Origin: Bacteroidales bacterium
Lineage (GTDB): Bacteria > Bacteroidota > Bacteroidia > Bacteroidales > P3
Reading direction: 5' to 3'
NCBI GenBank assembly: GCA_022482545.1
Contig: JAKVOZ010000001.1
Location: 124,001 to 188,000, forward strand
Length of the DNA: 64,000 nucleotides
This document shows, piece by piece, positions 1,522-63,847 of this stretch (position 1 is its first letter; every line of letters begins with the position of its first letter). A program made the position numbers and the translations under genes. The notes under the pieces are model-generated. The model saw nothing but the letters and a program-made list of their open reading frames with translations. It was not told the DNA's origin and ran no database searches.

Positions 1522-3456
1522 ATGATAATTATAACATTACCTGACGGTTCTAAAAGACAGTATAATGAAGGAGTAACGGCATTAGATGTTGCTAAAAGTA
1601 TTAGTGAGGGCTTAGCAAGAAATGTTCTTTCTGCTACTATAGATGGAGAAATTAAAGACCTTTCTTATACAATAGAAAAAGATTGTACATTAAAACTTAA
1701 TACATGGCAAGATGAAGATGGTAAAAAAACATTTTGGCATTCTTCTGCACATTTATTAGCCTCTGCTGTTCAATCTCTTTATCCAAAAGCAAAGTTTGGA
1801 ATAGGACCTGCTATTGAAAATGGTTTTTACTATGATATAGATTTTGGTGATGATGTATTAACAACGGAAGACTTTCCAAAGATAGAACAAAAAATGGTTG
1901 AGATAGTTAAACAAGGAGTAAAGATTGTTAGAAGAAATGTTTCTAAACAAGAAGCTCTTGACTATTTCACAAAAAGAAACGAAACATATAAAGTAGAATT
2001 AATAAATGACCTTCAAGATGGAACGATAAGTTTTTATGAAAGTGGAGACTTTACAGACCTTTGTCGCGGACCTCATTTATTAGATTTTTCTCCAATAAAA
2101 GCTATTAAGATAACATCTTTGGCTGGTGCATATTGGAGAGGAGATGAGAAGAATAAACAACTTACTCGTTTATATGCTATAACATTTCCAAAGAAAAAAG
2201 AGCTTGATGAATATCTTGCCTTACTTGAAGAAGCAAAGAAAAGAGACCACAGAAAGCTTGGAAAAGAAATGGAATTGTTTGCTTTCTCACAAAATGTTGG
2301 TCAAGGACTTCCTCTTTGGTTGCCAAAAGGTACAGCATTAAGAGAAAGACTAGAAAACTTTTTAAAGAAGGTTCAAAAAGAGTATGGATACTTACAAGTA
2401 ATAACTCCCCATATAGGAGATGTTAATCTTTATAAAACATCAGGACACTACCAAAAATATGGACAAGATTCATTTCGTCCAATAAAAACTCCTTATGAAG
2501 GTGAAGAGTATATGCTTAAACCAATGAACTGCCCTCACCATGTTGAGATTTATCGTTTAACTCCAAAATCATATAAAGACCTTCCTTATCGTTTGGCAGA
2601 GTTTGGTACAGTTTATCGTTATGAACAAAGTGGAGAACTACATGGATTAACAAGAGTTCGTTCATTTACTCAAGATGATGCACATATATTCTGTACTCCT
2701 GAACAATTAAAAGAAGAATTTTGTAAAGTAATAGATATTGTATTATATATATTTAAGACATTAAAGTTTAATGAATTCACAGCACAAATATCTTTGCGTG
2801 ATCCAAAGAACACACAAAAATATATAGGAAGTGATGAAGTTTGGGAAAAAGCAGAAAGAGCGATTGTTGAGAGTGCACAAGAGAAAGGATTGAAGACAAC
2901 AACAGAAATAGGAGAGGCTGCATTCTATGGACCAAAGCTTGACTTTATGGTTAGAGATGCTATTGGAAGAAAATGGCAACTTGGAACGATTCAAGTAGAT
3001 TATAATCTTCCAGAGAGATTTAATCTTGAATATATAGGTGCAGATAATCAAAAACATCGTCCTGTTATGATACATAGAGCACCATTTGGTTCTATGGAGA
3101 GATTTGTAGCAGTACTTTTGGAACATACAGCAGGCGAATTTCCTCTTTGGTTAACACCTGACCAATTTACAGTTTTGCCTATTAGTGAGAAATATGAAGA
3201 ATATGGCAATAAGGTATTAAAAGAACTTACTCATAATGATTTACGAGGAGATATTGACCTTAGAAGTGAAAAGACAGGTAAAAAGATTAGAGATGCAGAA
3301 TTAAAGAAAATTCGTTATATGTTGATTGTTGGAGAGAAAGAAGCACAAGATGGAACGGTATCTGTTCGTGAACACTTAAAAGGTGATTTGGGAACGATGC
3401 CAATTGAAAGTTTTGTTGAGTTAGTTAATGAAGCAGTAAAAAAAGAATTAAATTAA
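1522..3456 (+). CDS. thrS: Threonine--tRNA ligase
   Basis: ThrRS activates threonine and charges tRNA-Thr, with an editing domain that removes mischarged serine. The 644-residue protein has a TGS domain at the N-terminus ([17 protein letters not shown]), an editing domain with the metal/editing motif [10 protein letters not shown] (around 85), the class II catalytic core with [10 protein letters not shown] (around 333) and a C-terminal anticodon-binding domain. I chose ATG 1522 because the TGS domain starts there, an AAAGGAGAG ribosome site lies 8 nt upstream, and the frame further upstream runs through the promoter. It heads the conserved thrS-infC-rpmI-rplT order. Confidence 0.97.
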
Positions 3457-3486
3457 AAAATAAAATAAATTATTAACATTAAAGAT

Positions 3487-3503
3487 AGGAGGAATAAATC
3501 ATA
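3487..3503 (+). promoter_or_regulatory. Strong Shine-Dalgarno and non-AUG start region of infC
   Basis: AGGAGG (3487-3492) is an exact complement of the anti-Shine-Dalgarno CCUCCU in this genome's own 16S gene. It lies 5 nt before ATC (3498) and 8 nt before ATA (3501). An in-frame TAA (3495-3497) closes the frame immediately upstream, and no ATG, GTG or TTG occurs before residue 22. Most genes in this window have A-rich leaders with no such site, which makes this one stand out. Confidence 0.75.
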
Positions 3504-4052
3504 GAAACACCAATTCGACCATATCGCGGCAGGCTACCAGAAAAAAAAGAGAACCCGCATTTGATAAATGAACACATCAAAAGTCCTATTGTTAGAATAG
3601 TAGGAGAAGATGTTGAAACAAAGATTTGTAATATAAAAGAGGCATTAAAGATTGCCGAAGAAGCAGGATTAGACTTAGTTGAAATATCACCAAACGTTAA
3701 TCCACCAGTTTGCAAATTAATGAATTATCAAAAATTTCTTTACGAACAAAAAAAGAAACAGAAAGAAAAGAAATCTAAATCTGCTAAGATGTTGGTAAAA
3801 GAAATACGACTTGGACCTCAAACAGATGATCATGATTTTGATTTTAAATTAAAACATGCAATAAAATTTTTGGAGGAAGGGAATAAAGTTAAAGTTGATG
3901 TATTCTTCAAGGGACGTACAATAGTATATAAAGAACAAGGAGAACAAAAGCTATTGAAATTTGCAGAAGCTTTGTTTGAGTATGGCAAACCAGAGATGAT
4001 GCCACAACTTGAAGGAAAGAAAATGCTAATGATTATAGCACCTAAAAAATAA
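3498..4052 (+). CDS. infC: Translation initiation factor IF-3 with a non-AUG start
   Basis: IF-3 binds the 30S subunit, prevents premature 50S joining and discriminates against wrong start codons. The product reads ETPIRPYRGRLPEKK, then the N-domain block INEHIKSPIVRIVGED, the Lys-rich linker and the C-domain with VKEIRLGPQTDDHDFDFK and MMPQLEGKKMLMIIAPKK. A TTG at 3561 is the first conventional start codon, but starting there leaves the AGGAGG at 3487 nearly 70 nt away and drops a plausible N-terminal extension. The likely start is ATC 3498 or ATA 3501. IF-3 genes are known to use AUU-type codons that IF-3 itself discriminates against, giving autoregulation. Which of the two codons is used is uncertain. 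Confidence 0.9.
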   Translation: MIETPIRPYRGRLPEKKENPHLINEHIKSPIVRIVGEDVETKICNIKEALKIAEEAGLDLVEISPNVNPPVCKLMNYQKFLYEQKKKQKEKKSKSAKMLVKEIRLGPQTDDHDFDFKLKHAIKFLEEGNKVKVDVFFKGRTIVYKEQGEQKLLKFAEALFEYGKPEMMPQLEGKKMLMIIAPKK

Positions 4053-5242: not shown

Positions 5243-5287
5243 AGTCCCTCCATTTTTGATTACAATAAAATAGAATAAAGAGATAGC

Positions 5288-5392
5288 AAAATAGTTCTTT
5301 AATCCAGTAAAATAGAATCAAGAACTATTTCACTGTAATCAAAAGACATTTCAATAGAATCAAAAGACATTTCAATAGAATGAAGAACTATT
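5288..5392. repeat. 21-nt modular array A (five units)
   Basis: Five contiguous units of exactly 21 nt: 5288, 5309, 5330, 5351 and 5372. The cores are AGTTCTTTAATCC (inverted), CAAGAACTATT, CAAAAGACATT twice and GAAGAACTATT. The first unit is in reverse orientation to the rest, so the ends can pair. It lies between the rplS terminator and the ncRNA promoter. It belongs to the family also seen at 22052, 33095, 41503, 48214, 53555 and 59924. Confidence 0.85.
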
Positions 5393-14108: not shown

Positions 14109-14166
14109 AAAGAAGATTTAGTATAGCGAATTACAGTACAAGCAAAATGAAATCAACTTGTACTGG

Positions 14167-14254
14167 CAGTACATTGCTAATGTACTATCAGTACAACAGC
14201 AATGTATTGTCAGTACATTAGCAATGTATTGTCAGTACATCAGCGATGTATTAG
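14167..14254. repeat. 22-nt tandem array with CAGTACA words
   Basis: Four contiguous 22-nt units start at 14167, 14189, 14211 and 14233, each opening CAGTACA and containing variants of TTAGCAATGTA or TTGCTAATGTA. A detached CAGTACA occurs at 14134. The ATTAGCAAT core also appears in the 21-nt arrays elsewhere in the window. The array lies in the untranslated gap upstream of the namZ promoter. Confidence 0.8.
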
Positions 14255-20848: not shown

Positions 20849-22042
20849 ATGGATACAGAGTTCATAATGGTTGCTAAAACAATGTTTGGTTTAGAGGAAC
20901 TTTTAGCAAAAGAGATAGAAGAGTTAGGAGGAAAAGAGATAACAATATTGAAAAGAGCAGTGCAGTTCAAAGGAGATATGAAACTTTTGTATCGTGCAAA
21001 TTATTGTTTAAGAACAGCACTTGCAATATTAAAACCATTACAATCTTTTACTGCAAGAAGCGACCAAGAGTTATACGACCATGTTTATAAGATAGAATGG
21101 GAAAAATATATGAATCCAGATGGAACGATGTATATTGATGCGTCTGTTAATAGTAATATTTTCAAACATTCTCTTTATGCAGCACAAAAAACGAAAGATG
21201 CTATTTGTGATAGATTTCGTAAAATGTTTGATGTTCGTCCTTCAATAGAAAAAGATTATGTTGATTTAAAGATAGACCTACATATATATGATAATCAGGT
21301 AACAATATCTTTAAATTCTTCTGGTGAGAGTTTGCATAAAAGAGGTTATCGTCAAGAGGTTGGTTCTGCACCATTGAATGAAGTAACAGCAGCAGGATTA
21401 ATACAATTGAGCGGTTGGCAAAAAGATTGTAATTTCTATGACCCTATGTGTGGTAGTGGAACAATAGCAATAGAGGCTGCAATGTATGCCAACAATATCC
21501 CAGCACAATATTATAGAAAATATTTTGGCTTTAAGAAATGGAGCGAATTTAATGCAGTAGATTGGAAAAATGAAAAAGAGATTGCAGATAGCAAAATAAG
21601 TGAGTTTGATTATGAGATATGGGCTTCCGATGTTTCTGGCTCTGCAATAGAAAGAGCAGATAAGAACATAAGATTTGCTCATTTAAATCACGATATTAAT
21701 CTTTTTCGTGCAGCAATAGAAGATGGCAAAAGACCAGATGGCAAAACATTTGTTATAACTAACCCACCTTATGGAGAAAGAATGGAGGTTGATGATATTA
21801 TTGACCTTTATCAAAGAATAGGAGATAGTTTAAAACAAAACTTCCAAGATTGTACTGCATTCATCATATCTTCTGATATTTTTGCATTAAAGAAAATAGG
21901 TTTGAAACCAACACGAAAAATAGAAGTATTTAATGGAAACTTGGAATGTAGGTTGTTTAAATTTGAAATATATTCAGGCAGTAAGAAAGCAAAGTATAAT
22001 ATAGATAATCAAGAAAGAGAACAAGAGAATAATATAGAATAA
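20849..22042 (+). CDS. THUMP-domain class I rRNA methyltransferase (RlmL N-terminal/YpsC type)
   Basis: The 397-residue protein has an N-terminal ferredoxin-like/THUMP region (about 45-155, with LYRANYCLRTALAILKP) and a Rossmann methyltransferase domain: FYDPMCGSGTIAIEAAMYA (motif I), WASDVSGSAIERADKNI, and NPPYGERM (motif IV, the N-P-P-Y typical of base N2-methylation). The family methylates G2445 of 23S rRNA in E. coli (N-terminal half of RlmL). The long acidic C-terminal tail is variable. A modular 21-nt array follows. Confidence 0.87.
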   Translation: MDTEFIMVAKTMFGLEELLAKEIEELGGKEITILKRAVQFKGDMKLLYRANYCLRTALAILKPLQSFTARSDQELYDHVYKIEWEKYMNPDGTMYIDASVNSNIFKHSLYAAQKTKDAICDRFRKMFDVRPSIEKDYVDLKIDLHIYDNQVTISLNSSGESLHKRGYRQEVGSAPLNEVTAAGLIQLSGWQKDCNFYDPMCGSGTIAIEAAMYANNIPAQYYRKYFGFKKWSEFNAVDWKNEKEIADSKISEFDYEIWASDVSGSAIERADKNIRFAHLNHDINLFRAAIEDGKRPDGKTFVITNPPYGERMEVDDIIDLYQRIGDSLKQNFQDCTAFIISSDIFALKKIGLKPTRKIEVFNGNLECRLFKFEIYSGSKKAKYNIDNQEREQENNIE

Positions 22043-22051
22043 AAAGACACG

Positions 22052-22160
22052 AAAATAGTTCTTTATTCCATTAAAATGAATTGCTATTCCGTTAAAATGG
22101 ATTCAAAAACTATTTTAATGGATTCAAAAACTATTTCAGCGGATTAAAGAACTATTTTTT
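22052..22160. repeat. 21-nt modular array B (five units)
   Basis: Five exact 21-nt units start at 22052, 22073, 22094, 22115 and 22136. Cores in order: AGTTCTTTATTCC (inverted), ATTGCTATTCC, GGATTCAAAAACTATT twice, GGATTAAAGAACTATT. The first and last units are inverted copies, so the whole array can fold into a hairpin followed by TTTT. It fills the gap between two convergent genes. Confidence 0.88.
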
Positions 22161-28348: not shown

Positions 28349-28369
28349 AGAAGTCTTCATATAATTTTG

Positions 28370-28416
28370 CTAACTCTTCGTTTTAATGAAATATATTGAA
28401 GAGTTAGTAAATTTTT
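28370..28416. terminator. Hairpin between TonB receptor and GH57 genes
   Basis: CTAACTCTTC (28370-28379) pairs perfectly with GAAGAGTTAG (28398-28407); TAAATTTTT follows. Lying between convergent genes, it probably stops transcription from both. Confidence 0.7.
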
Positions 28417-28429
28417 ACGGCGTTTTATT

Positions 28430-30919: not shown

Positions 30920-30984
30920 AATCTTTCTTCTTTAATTATTCACTATTCATTTTTCTCTCTTCATTATTCACTATTCACTCTTAA

Positions 30985-32940
30985 TTATTCACTGTCTTTT
31001 GAATATTTGTCAATCAAATATTTCATTCTAACAATTTCTGCCACGCTCCATGCTTGTGAAATACAACCTCCTGCCTTATGAGGCGAGTTGCCATCATAAA
31101 CTTCTGCAATACTTCCTACACAATATTCACACAAAGCACTTTCAAATCCATCGTATATCTCTTTTATAAATCCCACACCTTGTTTGCCATACGTTCTAAG
31201 ATAACCTTCGCTGAATGCTCCTAAAAGCCATGGCCAAACTGTTCCATTATGATAAGCATAATCTCTTTCTTTTTGATTGCCAAAGTAAATACCTTTATAG
31301 TCTTTATGTGTTGGTGATAATGAACGCAAGCCTCGTGGAGTTAGAAGTTCGCTTTTAACTTTTTCTACAATAAGTTGGCGTATCTTAACACTTATTGGCG
31401 AATATTGAAGAGATGTTGCAAATATCATATTTGGCCTTACCGAAAAATCTTTATAATCTCCATCAACATAATCTGCAAGATAACCTTTTTCTTTTGACCA
31501 AAAAGTCTCCTTAAAGTTTATAGGAAAATTAGCACAAAAGTCTTGCCAATGTTGAATAGCACCATCATCGCAGTTTTCTTTTGCAAGTTCAATATAAAAC
31601 ATTACTGCGTTATACCAAAGACAGTTTATCTCAACAGCATAACCTTTTCTCTGCGTAACAGGAACACCATCAACAACAGCGTCCATCCAAGTTAATGCTT
31701 TTCCTTCTTGCCCTTGCCACAACAAATAATTGCTATCCATTCTTATGTTAGAGAACCCTTGCTCAAAGTTTTCAAGAATAGATTTCATCACTTTGTTATA
31801 TTTTTTCCAAACGTGTTTCTTGTCATCATTAAAGCAAACATATTGTTGCAAAGCCCAGAAAAACCATAATGGAGTATCACAACTATTGTATGCTGCTTCA
31901 AATCCATGACCTAAATTTGGAAAAAGACCATTTTTAAAATCTTTTAATATTGTATCAACAACAGAAAGAAATATTCGCATATCATCAATGCCTAAGCAAA
32001 GACCAGCAAGTGATATGAAAGTATCTCGTCCCCAACGTCCAAACCAAGGAAAGCCTGCAACAATATCAACATCGGTAGTACTTGTATGGCAGAAAAACAT
32101 TCTTGAAGCACGTTTTAGAACATCTTCCATGCTATTTATTTCAAATCTTATCTTTGATTCTCTTTTAAAATCTTGACTAAGAAGAAAAGGATTGCTGTTT
32201 TCAATACCGCATGATAAGTAAAAACTTTCGCCAGGAGCCAATTCAATTGAAAAAACTCCCATCATTAACAAATCTTCTAAATAATCGTAGCCTCTTTCTT
32301 TTTCTCTTATGTACTCAAAATTGTAGTACCAATCTGGACAATGATTATATTTCACTTTCTTTGAGAACTGAATATATAGTGGAGTGTAGTTTGGATACAT
32401 TTGATACATAACTCCATTATCTATTGATTGATAAGACGTGTCGGCATTATCGTTTTTGTGTGATAGTTTATGTATTTGTCTAAAAGCAAGCAAAGGTTGA
32501 AGATTGAGAGTTATGTTTGAGTCTGCCTCTTTAAGAGTATATTTAATTAAAAGTCTATCTCGTCTTTGTTGAATTTGAATTTCCTTTGTTAAACATATAT
32601 TACCAATACGGTAAGTTGTTATTGGAAGATTTTTTAAGTAGTAAGATTCAAGATATTTGTGTCCTTTGGGATAAAAGCAGTTATCTTTGTAGCAATGCAA
32701 CGCAAGATGAAACTCCTGGTCTTTTTGAATAACTGTCTCATCAAGAGAAGATAAAAGAACATGATTTTCATTATCTATTTTTGGTTGAGGAACAATTAAA
32801 AGACCGTGATATTTTCTTGTATTACAACCAGAAAGTGTTGTGCAAGCATAAGCATTGGACATATTTGCTCTTAGAATTTCTCTATTCAAAGAAAACTCTA
32901 AGTTCAATAATTCATCTTTTTGAAATAATATTTCTTTCAT
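30985..32940 (-). CDS. Glycogen debranching enzyme (amylo-alpha-1,6-glucosidase)
   Basis: The 651-residue protein has an N-terminal beta domain (GCNTRKYHGLLIVPQP) and a C-terminal alpha/alpha-barrel with GFPWFGRWGRDTFISLAGL, LWQGQEGKALTWMDA, VEINCLWYNA and NGTVWPWLLGAFSEGYLR. It removes alpha-1,6 branches from glycogen. It is the first gene of the cluster; a minus-strand TATCTTTG box at 32970-32963 lies 23 nt upstream of its start. Confidence 0.92.
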   Translation of the reverse strand: MKEILFQKDELLNLEFSLNREILRANMSNAYACTTLSGCNTRKYHGLLIVPQPKIDNENHVLLSSLDETVIQKDQEFHLALHCYKDNCFYPKGHKYLESYYLKNLPITTYRIGNICLTKEIQIQQRRDRLLIKYTLKEADSNITLNLQPLLAFRQIHKLSHKNDNADTSYQSIDNGVMYQMYPNYTPLYIQFSKKVKYNHCPDWYYNFEYIREKERGYDYLEDLLMMGVFSIELAPGESFYLSCGIENSNPFLLSQDFKRESKIRFEINSMEDVLKRASRMFFCHTSTTDVDIVAGFPWFGRWGRDTFISLAGLCLGIDDMRIFLSVVDTILKDFKNGLFPNLGHGFEAAYNSCDTPLWFFWALQQYVCFNDDKKHVWKKYNKVMKSILENFEQGFSNIRMDSNYLLWQGQEGKALTWMDAVVDGVPVTQRKGYAVEINCLWYNAVMFYIELAKENCDDGAIQHWQDFCANFPINFKETFWSKEKGYLADYVDGDYKDFSVRPNMIFATSLQYSPISVKIRQLIVEKVKSELLTPRGLRSLSPTHKDYKGIYFGNQKERDYAYHNGTVWPWLLGAFSEGYLRTYGKQGVGFIKEIYDGFESALCEYCVGSIAEVYDGNSPHKAGGCISQAWSVAEIVRMKYLIDKYSKDSE

Positions 32941-33094: not shown

Positions 33095-33178
33095 GAAATG
33101 GATTGCTAATCCAGTAAAATGTCTTTTGATTCCAGTAAAATAGTTTTTGAATCCATTAAAATAGTTCTTTAATCCATT
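33095..33178. repeat. 21-nt modular array C (four units)
   Basis: Four exact 21-nt units start at 33095, 33116, 33137 and 33158. Cores: GGATTGCTAATCC, GTCTTTTGATTCC, AGTTTTTGAATCC and AGTTCTTTAATCC, all in the reverse orientation relative to the right halves of arrays B and F. It is followed directly by a separate 22-nt tandem and preceded by AATTATTCACT words. Confidence 0.88.
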
Positions 33179-33186
33179 TCAACAAA

Positions 33187-33243
33187 ATGGCATTATGTTG
33201 GTGATAGAATGGCATTATGTTAGTGATAGAATGGCATTATGTT
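33187..33243. repeat. 22-nt tandem with ATGGCATTATGTT (three copies)
   Basis: ATGGCATTATGTT begins at 33187, 33209 and 33231, a strict 22-nt period; the linkers are TGGTGATAGA-like. It abuts array C, in the gap upstream of the glycogen cluster and downstream of the flippase gene. Confidence 0.85.
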
Positions 33244-33325
33244 GTATTATCTCTTTAAAGTAATTTATTATTAGTAAGAAAGAATTTAATAAGATGAAAA
33301 GAAAATTTAGTGTCTTTATATTTCG

Positions 33326-41502: not shown

Positions 41503-41606
41503 AAATTAGTTCTTTAATCCGCTAAAATGAATTGCTAATCTATTTAAATAGTTCTTGAATCCGTTAAAATGGATTAAAGAACTATTTTTTTATCTCTTTA
41601 ATCCAT
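41503..41606. repeat. 21-nt modular array D (four units plus partial)
   Basis: Exact 21-nt units start at 41503, 41524, 41545 and 41566 with cores AGTTCTTTAATCC (inverted), ATTGCTAATC, AGTTCTTGAATCC (inverted) and GGATTAAAGAACTATT. A further CTCTTTAATCC piece follows. First and last units are inverted copies, and the last is followed by TTTTTTT. It lies between convergent genes. Confidence 0.85.
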
Positions 41607-41723
41607 TTGCACCCGTTGCAATGTTTGTCGCATTAATGGTAGTAAGAACATTTAAGACTCTGAAAACAACAAGGATATTTAATAAAATAAATAACCGAAA
41701 GTAAGAAAAAGAATATTTAGATA

Positions 41724-48213: not shown

Positions 48214-48297
48214 AAAATGGATTGCTAATCCGTTAAAATGGATTCAAAAACTATTTTACTGGAATCAAAAGACATTTTATTGGATTAGCAATCCATT
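48214..48297. repeat. 21-nt modular array E (four units)
   Basis: Exact 21-nt units start at 48214, 48235, 48256 and 48277: GGATTGCTAATCC, GGATTCAAAAACTATT, GGAATCAAAAGACATT and GGATTAGCAATCC. The first and last are reverse complements, and TTTTT follows the last. It lies 3' of the AlkD-like gene and is followed by AGTGAATAATT words. Confidence 0.88.
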
Positions 48298-50641: not shown

Positions 50642-52174
<1,533 letters not shown>

Positions 52175-52261
52175 AGAGATAGAAAAAAAATAAAAAAAAG
52201 GAGAGAGGAGAGAGAGAAGGAAGGATACGATAAAAAGAGACAGAGAGTAACTTACTTTTAG

Positions 52262-52272
52262 TTACGCTACTT
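52262..52272 (+). other. Pre-16S processing stem, 3' arm
   Basis: TTACGCTACTT is the exact complement of 50524-50534. Its presence shows that the sequence just past the 16S gene is the true spacer of this gene. Confidence 0.75.
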
Positions 52273-52299
52273 AAAATAGGTTTTTATAAAGAGATAAAC

Positions 52300-52373
52300 A
52301 GTTCCGTAGCTCAGTTGGTTAGAGCACTACACTGATAATGTAGGGGTCGGCAGTTCAACTCTGCCCGGAACTA
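52300..52373 (+). tRNA. tRNA-Ile (GAT anticodon)
   Basis: A complete cloverleaf: acceptor stem AGTTCCG (52300-52306) with CGGAACT (52366-52372), D arm GCTC/GAGC, anticodon stem CTACA/TGTAG with loop CTGATAA (anticodon GAT at 52334-52336), variable loop GGGTC, T arm GGCAG/CTGCC and discriminator A at 52373. CCA is not encoded. It is the usual first tRNA of a 16S-23S spacer, 125 nt after the 16S end, but no tRNA-Ala or 23S follows. Confidence 0.95.
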
Positions 52374-53554: not shown

Positions 53555-53638
53555 AAAATGGATTAAAGAACTATTTTACTGGAATCAAAAGACATTTAAA
53601 TGGATTAAAGAACTATTTTACTGGATTAGCAATCCATT
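53555..53638. repeat. 21-nt modular array F (four units)
   Basis: Exact units start at 53555, 53576, 53597 and 53618: GGATTAAAGAACTATT, GGAATCAAAAGACATT, GGATTAAAGAACTATT, GGATTAGCAATCC. The ends AAAATGGATT and AATCCATTTT are inverted copies. It lies between convergent genes. Confidence 0.88.
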
Positions 53639-53639
53639 T

Positions 53640-53715
53640 TCAGTTAAAAGTTAAAAATGAAAAGTTAATAGTGAATAGTGAATAATGAATAGTGCGAAAT
53701 GAAAAGTGAATAAAC
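53640..53715. repeat. Low-complexity AGTGAATA/AGTTAAAA words
   Basis: Tandem short words (GTTAAAAGTTAAAAATG, AATAGTGAATAGTGAATAATG, AGTGAATAA) of 7-8 nt. The same words flank other 21-nt arrays: 30935-30990 and 33060-33094 (reverse complement), 48299-48325, 59898-59922 and 60009-60045. Confidence 0.65.
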
Positions 53716-59923: not shown

Positions 59924-60007
59924 AAAATGGATTAGCAATCCGCTGGAATGGATTCAAAAGACATTTAAATGGAATAAAGAACTATTTTACTGGATTAGCA
60001 ATCCATT
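59924..60007. repeat. 21-nt modular array G (four units)
   Basis: Exact units start at 59924, 59945, 59966 and 59987: GGATTAGCAATCC, GGATTCAAAAGACATT, GGAATAAAGAACTATT, GGATTAGCAATCC. Flanked on both sides by AGTTAATAGTGAAAA words. It sits between the GH3 family and sufE genes, both on the plus strand. Confidence 0.88.
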
Positions 60008-60065
60008 TAAAGTGAAAAGTGAAAAGTTAATAGTGAAAAAATAAATAATAATAAAAGTTAAAAAT

Positions 60066-63119: not shown

Positions 63120-63180
63120 ACTAAGGCTTATTTATTAAGTTTTTATTTATAAACCCTCATATGCGTCTAGCAAAAACCCA

Positions 63181-63256
63181 GTCGGTGGTTACCGACAAGC
63201 AAAAAACCCAGTCGGTGGTTACCGACAAACAAAAAACCCAGTCGGTGGTTACCGAC
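63181..63256. repeat. Three 30-nt hairpin units before the HU-related gene
   Basis: GTCGGTGGTTACCGAC occurs at 63181, 63211 and 63241, an exact 30-nt period; the linkers are AARCAAAAAACCCA. Each forms a 6-bp stem GTCGGT/ACCGAC with a GGTT loop. Their GC content far exceeds the surroundings. Confidence 0.92.
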
Positions 63257-63281
63257 AAACAATTTAAAAAAAACAACAACT

Positions 63282-63683
63282 ATGATTTCATTTGTAAAAA
63301 TTAAAAGAAACATCGCAGTAGGACACACACCAGGAGTAAAGTATATGGCTCATCTTTGGCGTGAAGCAGATGTTAATCTTGACACAATAGCACAAGAGAT
63401 TGCTGATGCTACTACTGTGTCTTATCCAGACGTGTTAGCCTGCTTGAAAGCAATGGAGATACACGTAAGTAAGTATGTCCTTAATGGCTCTGCCGTAAAA
63501 TTTGGTACTCTCGGCTCTTTCATCCCTTCTATCAAGGCTACCTGCCAAGATACGTTGGAAAAAGTAACTGCTGACACTATCAAAAAAACACGTTGCCGTT
63601 TCTATCCTTCACCTGCCTTTATGAGGAAACTACAAAAAGCACAATTTGCTTACAAAGACTTAACCGTCAAAGGTCTTCAGTAG
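63282..63683 (+). CDS. HU-related DNA-binding protein
   Basis: The 133-residue protein belongs to the Bacteroidota HU-related group: MISFVKIKRNIAVG, an N-terminal region EIADATTVSYPDVLACLKAM (HU helices), the beta arm region LNGSAVKFGTLGSFIPSIKA and a closing RCRFYPSPAFMRKLQKAQFA. HU-type proteins bend DNA and organise nucleoids. Codon use is markedly more GC-rich than its neighbours, suggesting transfer. The stop TAG merges with the first base of the downstream repeat. Both untranslated regions are packed with hairpin repeats. Confidence 0.85.
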   Translation: MISFVKIKRNIAVGHTPGVKYMAHLWREADVNLDTIAQEIADATTVSYPDVLACLKAMEIHVSKYVLNGSAVKFGTLGSFIPSIKATCQDTLEKVTADTIKKTRCRFYPSPAFMRKLQKAQFAYKDLTVKGLQ

Positions 63684-63847
63684 CCACAACCGTGGCGGGG
63701 ATTATTGCTAACGCAGCCACAGCCGTGGCGGGGATTATTGCTAACGCAGCCACAACCGTGGCGGGGATTATTGCTAACGCAGCCACAGCCGTGGCGGGGA
63801 TTATTGCTAACGCAGCCACAACCGTGGCGGGGATTATTGCTAACGGT
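63683..63847. repeat. Five 33-nt hairpin units after the HU-related gene
   Basis: Units start at 63683, 63716, 63749, 63782 and 63815. Each is GCCACARCCGTGGC plus GGGGATTATTGCTAACGCA. The loop alternates AACC, AGCC, AACC, AGCC, AACC, so a 66-bp higher-order repeat exists. Reading frames through this region encode only a repeat peptide (VAGIIANAAT) and are not genes. Confidence 0.93.

Follow-up and report, generated by a model that had tools for sequence, protein, structure and literature searches.

Arrays of 21-nt units between the genes of the window

The DNA analyzed here is a 64,000-nt stretch of a Bacteroidales genome (hereafter, the window), and its positions 22052-22160 hold 105 nt of repeat units followed by four T residues. 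This array lies 10 nt 3' of the stop codon of an ORF for an RlmL-like methyltransferase, and an additional degenerate unit (~22031-22051) overlaps the end of that ORF. A first-pass annotation had listed seven such arrays in the window, with 5+5+4+4+4+4+4 = 30 units, each exactly 21 nt long and joined without gaps; these counts and the coordinates proved correct, and all seven arrays do lie between ORFs, as it had stated. However, two of the arrays extend further: array 1 really starts at 5267, its first unit (AAAATAGAATAAAGAGATAGC) having been overlooked, and array 4 runs up to 41609. GC content of the region is 30%. The repeat features of the window are listed below (none is assigned to a strand; F and P denote unit types, and signs their orientation).

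5267-5392: array 1, six units (F+ F- F+ F+ F+ F+), previously given as 5288-5392
14159-14252: 22b palindrome array (GTACATTRGCAATGTAC), of a family that joins 21-nt arrays in register elsewhere in the genome
22052-22156: array 2, five units (F- P- F+ F+ F+), in a convergent gap
28349-28429: decayed unit pair (CTAACTCTTCGTTTTAAT...TTGAAGAGTTAG), in a convergent gap, hairpin folding retained
33095-33180: array 3, four units (P- F- F- F-)
33181-33244: 22a palindrome array (AATGGCATTATGTTGGTGATAG; palindromes at 33186-33244), continuing array 3 in register
41503-41609: array 4, five units (F- P- F- F+ F-; previously four), in a convergent gap
48214-48297: array 5, four units (P- F+ F+ P+)
53555-53638: array 6, four units (F+ F+ F+ P+), in a convergent gap, with 7-nt repeats after the array
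59924-60007: array 7, four units (P+ F+ F+ P+), with 7-nt repeats on its flanks

The F- F+ pair of array 4 forms a strong hairpin followed by T7, and array 5 is preceded by a degenerate unit, AAAATAAAGAGATAGT. Searching the window against Rfam gave only 16S rRNA and one tRNA above threshold; the 16S rRNA gene, and then the tRNA, occupy 50642-52373. A neighbouring gene has its nearest named relatives in Bacteroidales MAGs (best protein identity, 60%).

Other short repeats occur in the same DNA. Intergenic 7-nt lattice repeats (AGTGAAA, AGTTAAT, ATTCACT and variants) are found at 30937-30993, 53642-53712 and 60009-60039, and often directly adjoin 21-nt arrays. Near the end of the window are two near-identical tandem repeats, one of 30 nt (AAAAACCCAGTCGGTGGTTACCGACAAACA, 3 copies, 63172-63262) and one of 33 nt (AGCCACAACCGTGGCGGGGATTATTGCTAACGC, 5 copies, 63682-63845), both GC-rich although the genome has 30% GC. 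A sequence similar to AAAAACCCAGTCGGTGGTTACCGACAAACA adjoins an array in L020.

Abundance of the units in the genome

Our statistics are based on a 464-kb sample from two contigs (the window plus 20 stretches of 20 kb each from contigs C1 and C2) and on pattern searches of the whole 1.88-Mb genome. The 16-nt unit word GGATTAAAGAACTATT gave 75 genome matches (37 + 38) with at most one mismatch, as against 0 for the reversed control; with 3 mismatches, the corresponding counts were 161 + 156 and 31 + 34. A position weight matrix trained on array units and applied at a cut-off of 14 bits or more identified 230 units in the 464-kb sample versus 7 in a third-order Markov null. The sample contains 50 arrays of two or more units, ranging in length from 2 to 8 units, and extrapolation from it gives roughly 200 arrays for the whole genome. 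When pairs of AATRGAWT were collected genome-wide with a free gap, 56 of 86 were 42 nt apart and 12 of 86 were 63 nt apart, with no other spacing represented more than 4 times. The first-pass annotation had named loss of the 21-nt period outside the window, or words at background frequency, as outcomes that would speak against a repeat class; checked genome-wide, neither was found, and multiples of 21 were kept. Thus, the arrays are not due to chance: the 30% GC content of the region would suit a periodicity arising by chance in AT-rich DNA, or an artefact of assembly, but that reading has virtually no probability left, being refuted by the reversed control (75 versus 0), the Markov null (230 versus 7) and spacings locked to multiples of 21 across many contigs and many species.

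One dyad lattice for both strands and several word families

The arrays follow a strict lattice, which the two strands and several unrelated word families have in common. Read in the forward sense, a unit consists of a linker plus left half of ~10 nt (e.g., AAAATGGATT, TTATTAGAAT or AAAATAAAAC), followed by an 11-nt core, which is AAAGAACTATT, CAAAAGACATT, CAAAAACTATT, CGAAGAAATATT-type, AAAGAGATAGC or the palindromic AGCAATCCATT. Same-strand neighbours in the 464-kb sample are 21 nt apart in 88 of 95 pairs. For opposite-strand neighbours, spacing measured by core is 23 nt (+-) or 19 nt (-+), because the feature that the units have in common is the lattice dyad, a single dyad lattice serving both strands. 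The earlier description of units joined gap-free in either orientation therefore holds for the two orientations and the exact 21-nt step, whereas opposite-strand cores are separated by, or overlap by, 2 nt.

Diversity among the units is high (52 core words in 162 F units of the 464-kb sample). The units had also been called interchangeable, and free interchange was not borne out, since halves and neighbours are correlated. More specifically, the left half TAAAAC goes with GAAGAAA-type cores (core CGAAGAAATATT) and TGGAAT with CAAAAGA, and all 12 core-to-core junctions pair one ATT-ending unit with one unit of another type (GATA- or GACA-like), so that a boundary of this kind has just one A/T tract, with one polarity. 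Dyad symmetry of the 21-nt family (0.59) is hardly higher than after column shuffling (0.57). Tandem palindromes were accordingly rejected as a universal rule, as they hold for the 22-nt families and are weak in the 21-nt families.

Two intergenic families of 22-nt palindromes are present in the genome, namely, 22a (CATAATGCCATTATG; AATGGCATTATGTTGGTGATAG in the array after array 3) and 22b (GTACATTRGCAATGTAC). The first 22a dyad in the window lies exactly 21 bp beyond the last dyad of array 3, and of the 13 contiguous junctions at which a 21-nt and a 22-nt family meet, 11 have their dyads 21 bp apart and 2 have them 22 bp apart. These junctions are polar, 22b meeting the core side and 22a mostly the linker side. 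The 22b junctions have AATAAAATACAT in common, and part of the register may therefore descend from one ancestral junction. Arrays of 22-nt palindromes also occur in L016 and L054 (~3360-3535).

The first-pass annotation had equated the period with two DNA turns. That equation fits, and suggestive support comes from predicted curvature, which is maximal at period 21; as computed with a simple wedge model, arrays curve by 40.5 degrees per 42 bp, whereas shuffled sequences reach 28.6 and gaps lacking arrays 31.9.

Mosaic order and turnover of the arrays

The order of units within arrays is mosaic. Identity between F units is 70.3% for adjacent units, 69.8% for non-adjacent units of the same array and 68.6% for units of other arrays; since neighbours are hardly more alike than units of other loci, we regard the arrays as mosaics and rule out simple local tandem duplication. 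Neighbours share the same core in 18 of 93 cases, as against 7.5% expected by frequency, which indicates some local copying. The longest exact blocks that different loci of the 464-kb sample have in common measure 42-49 nt, approximately the length of two units. The proposal of a shared vocabulary newly combined at each locus is thereby upheld, the units forming a genome-wide vocabulary mosaic rather than a minisatellite set. Conservation of arrays at orthologous gene ends in congeners was not found: where a gene of the window genome has an array, only 1 of 21 orthologous 3' gaps has one, which points to fast turnover.

Lattices with other words in related genomes

Vocabularies are species-specific, with a shared ancestral word. 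The exact words of the window species have 0-1 matches in other congeners, and a two-unit word pattern had no match in 84,980 species or 2.9 million viral contigs, collections from which the nearest relatives of the window genome may be missing. The lattice was counted in relatives in a word-free manner, by tallying repeated 7-mers in intergenic gaps by lag. In 13 congeners, we observed 41 clusters at lag 21 and 11 at lag 22, versus 2 and 5 at lags 20 and 23. Likewise, 21 genomes from the family's other genera had 25 clusters at lag 21 and 12 at lag 22, versus 2 and 0 at lags 20 and 23. Other families of the order showed no clear lattice (7 clusters at lag 21 versus 6 at lag 20). Several species with other words carry inverted words on one lattice phase in 80-100% of pairs, as against ~5% if phases were uniform, neighbouring 7-mers in this count not being independent of each other. 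The class is accordingly not limited to the words first described from the window, as 21/22-bp lattices with other words occur across the family.

Some words are nevertheless shared between genera. Copies of TAAAACGAAG spaced exactly 21 nt apart are found in three or more genera of the family, and the word pair AAAACGAAG...ARAAYVAAG at 21 nt was found 59, 77, 48, 190 and 53 times in G007, G008, G010, G022 and G079, respectively, and in further genomes (range, 13-190), versus 0-3 matches in controls and background level outside the family. A 21-nt word pair present in at least three genera implies a homologous part of the class that is old within the family and whose vocabularies drift.

Lattices of 21/22 nt with unrelated words are found in G001, G002, G004, G013 and G014 (L082, L112, L113, L085, L105, L120 and L121), examples of such words in relatives being TAATCTGCGTGATTA, TTTCAGACGGTCTGAAA, TTGAACCGTCC and AAGGTCAATTTGTTGACCTT. 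These vocabularies may either derive from the homologous part of the class or have had separate origins. In L185 (G061), a 21-nt array extends into the apparent start codon of the next gene (AAAGAAATATGAAACTACATTTT), in contrast to the 3'-end placement usual in the window genome.

Position of the arrays relative to genes

Arrays are biased toward convergent gaps and gene 3' ends. In the 464-kb sample they occupy 18 of the 39 gaps between convergent genes, 22 of the 242 tandem gaps and 7 of the 42 divergent ones, that is, 40 of the 47 classifiable arrays lie in convergent or tandem gaps, classes that are approximate because the ORFs were called mechanically. Preference for convergent over tandem gaps is strong (odds ratio 5.7, p 3e-5), and repeats of other periods have no such bias. 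Arrays in tandem gaps lie a median of 47 nt from the upstream stop and 98 nt from the next start. The convergent bias is a trend in congeners (p 0.067) and is absent at period 21 in other genera of the family; it is clear in the window genome alone. The 3' bias could reflect mere tolerance.

Origin and maintenance of the arrays

We consider the arrays best explained as a lineage-restricted class of BIME-like mosaic repeats, remade by block exchange and held in register both by helical phase and by this exchange, a reading to which we assign a probability of roughly 0.5. The building block would be a 21-bp unit with facing halves, either strand's reading of which fits one lattice. Arrays would be remade by swapping blocks of one to two units between loci, an exchange deduced from one genome per species, and ectopic recombination or template switching could preserve the register by itself. 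Arrays may persist where they do little harm, or where they help to separate transcription units. The two-turn step might be kept because A/T tracts and dyads on one helix face would yield curved DNA, and a curved array could serve as a landing track for a cooperative DNA-binding protein. The words of several relatives are without A-tracts, which counts against the curvature account. No mobilising enzyme was found, and the genes between two arrays in the sample gave no obvious candidate for an autonomous element.

Alternatively, the arrays as a whole may be binding tracks of a DNA-binding or nucleoid protein that reads sequence and acts cooperatively, with 21 bp as its protein-protein spacing and a vocabulary that co-evolves with it in each species. 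The exact two-turn register, dyads common to both strands, the joining of different word families in register, the polar boundary rule at 12 of 12 core-to-core junctions and the raised predicted curvature are all in keeping with such a protein. We nevertheless think this unlikely, given the great diversity of units within one genome (52 core words among 162 F units), the lack of a candidate protein and of array conservation at orthologous genes, and the fact that homologous exchange alone also predicts register. A broader and comparably doubtful proposal is that of family-wide phase-locked DNA, whereby a 21/22-bp two-turn register would be selected independently of sequence, read by a putative architectural protein or written by a putative enzyme acting as a two-turn ruler, with each species placing its own words on the conserved lattice.

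The arrays might also act as bidirectional terminators or 3'-end elements, with RNA hairpins formed by facing units and, whichever strand is transcribed, a run of U at the far edge. Enrichment in convergent gaps would suit this role, and so would the edges of the arrays, where units point outward in 66 versus 34 cases (p 0.0018) and T runs are longer (p 0.0014). In tandem gaps, the orientation of the units matches transcription in 16 of 21 arrays (p 0.027). These edge and orientation biases hint at a transcription-linked role, and count against a purely neutral repeat, which would not need one. Arrays also fold more stably (z ~ -3.4) than control gaps (z ~ -1.2), and individual F- F+ pairs form hairpins of -18 to -22 kcal/mol followed by T runs. 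However, units permuted among arrays fold alike (-775 ± 40 versus -755), and random unit flips lower the folding energy (-896); pairing within arrays is therefore not selected, and folding follows from the vocabulary. The RNA hairpin as a selected feature is thus unsupported under unit permutation. Judged by a GC-rich hairpin plus T run at each gene end, some unit pairs qualify as terminators and others do not; many all-forward arrays are unable to form a hairpin, and seven arrays lie in divergent gaps. Ordinary terminators are about equally frequent in array gaps and other gaps, and this coexistence leaves a role as terminator replacements unsupported. Taken together, we hold the terminator reading to be improbable.

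Still less probable, to a marked degree, is that the arrays are MITEs, i.e., short non-autonomous transposons that a transposase moves in one piece (the 84-bp P-F-F-P form would be an example). The four-unit P-F-F-P form does recur (window positions 48214 and 59924, L051:5485 and L053:11507), palindromic units are frequent at array ends (18 of 76 terminal versus 10 of 93 internal units, p 0.036), and the vocabulary is both genome-wide and species-specific. But no two loci of the sample have more than 49 nt exactly in common, indicating that whole arrays are not copied; moreover, array length varies between 2 and 8 units, no duplicated target sites were noticed next to the window arrays, and the genus is without a Y1 transposase.

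If block exchange among BIME-like mosaics is the right account, the genomes of one bacterial family each contain some hundreds of repeat loci whose grammar is unlike that of any described repeat class: the two-turn register is fixed, the two strands are used symmetrically, several word families sit on one lattice, and species vocabularies are built on a shared ancestral word. Such loci would make a natural system for two questions, namely, whether intergenic DNA is selected for helical phase as such, and by what means interspersed mosaic repeats can disperse and diversify in the absence of a RAYT transposase.

Comparison with known repeat systems

The arrays are apparently an undescribed repeat class, real and widespread, of the kind of interspersed mosaic elements. 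The first-pass annotation knew of no named class with such a grammar; consistently, our literature searches found none matching mosaic arrays on a 21-bp lattice, although that annotation had missed the nearest kind, REP/BIME, as found in E. coli. A CRISPR array is ruled out, as the units abut without spacers.

ARG boxes are phased operator arrays. BldC direct repeats likewise form a phased operator array with cooperative binding (PMC5859096). Both resemble the present arrays in having sites whole helical turns apart on one face, with cooperativity and variable array length, but comprise few promoter sites with one motif, as opposed to ~200 gene-end loci with a varied vocabulary. Heptamer repeats, such as the TAACTGA arrays of Beggiatoaceae, Cyanobacteria and some Bacteroidetes, are found mostly just upstream of start codons (PMC4679880); they share a strict short period, intergenic location and patchy distribution, and differ in their period of 7, single word, uniform orientation and start-codon placement.

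The nearest named repeat of Bacteroidales is the BrickBuilt MITE/minisatellite of Porphyromonas gingivalis, a gap-free tandem 23-nt repeat at ~20 intergenic loci, in which a single sequence is repeated in a single orientation, flanked by leader and tail, with IS5-type inverted ends (PMC4596501). The two have gap-free short tandem units, intergenic location and species specificity in common. In contrast, the units described here are diverse, 21 nt long, in two orientations and without leader, tail or shared ends, a common leader or tail being precluded by the 49-nt limit on blocks shared between loci.

Closest in kind are REP/BIME elements, i.e., short, foldable extragenic units present many times per genome in both orientations, as mosaic clusters of species-specific families, and placed mainly downstream of genes, between convergent or unidirectional ORFs (PMC3733652). 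REP units are palindromes 20-40 nt long that bear a GTAG or CGTC tag, and CGTC REPs, too, reportedly lack a dedicated transposase (PMC3733652). Neither tag is in our unit consensus, and there is no strong hairpin per unit. The RAYT (Y1) transposase PF01797 was missing in all 14 genomes of the genus as well as in three array-rich genomes of other genera (G022, G079 and G081), control genomes being positive; with no Y1 transposase in the genus and an anti-correlation in the family, mobilisation by RAYT is ruled out. Family genomes rich in Y1 (G015, G017, G029, G071 and G094) are mostly without TAAAACGAAG 21-nt arrays, and the genomes richest in arrays (G007, G008, G022 and G079) are without Y1 transposases. 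The likeness to REP/BIME lies in the mixture of F+, F- and P units in 50 arrays, in both orientations and species-specific, and in the preference for convergent pairs and gene 3' ends (40 of 47 arrays convergent or tandem). The difference lies in 21-bp units that abut on a strict lattice, and in a half-unit and boundary grammar with several word families in one register. Our best reading is that the arrays fall outside the described REP families, on account of tag, hairpin per unit and RAYT, and yet work like BIMEs.
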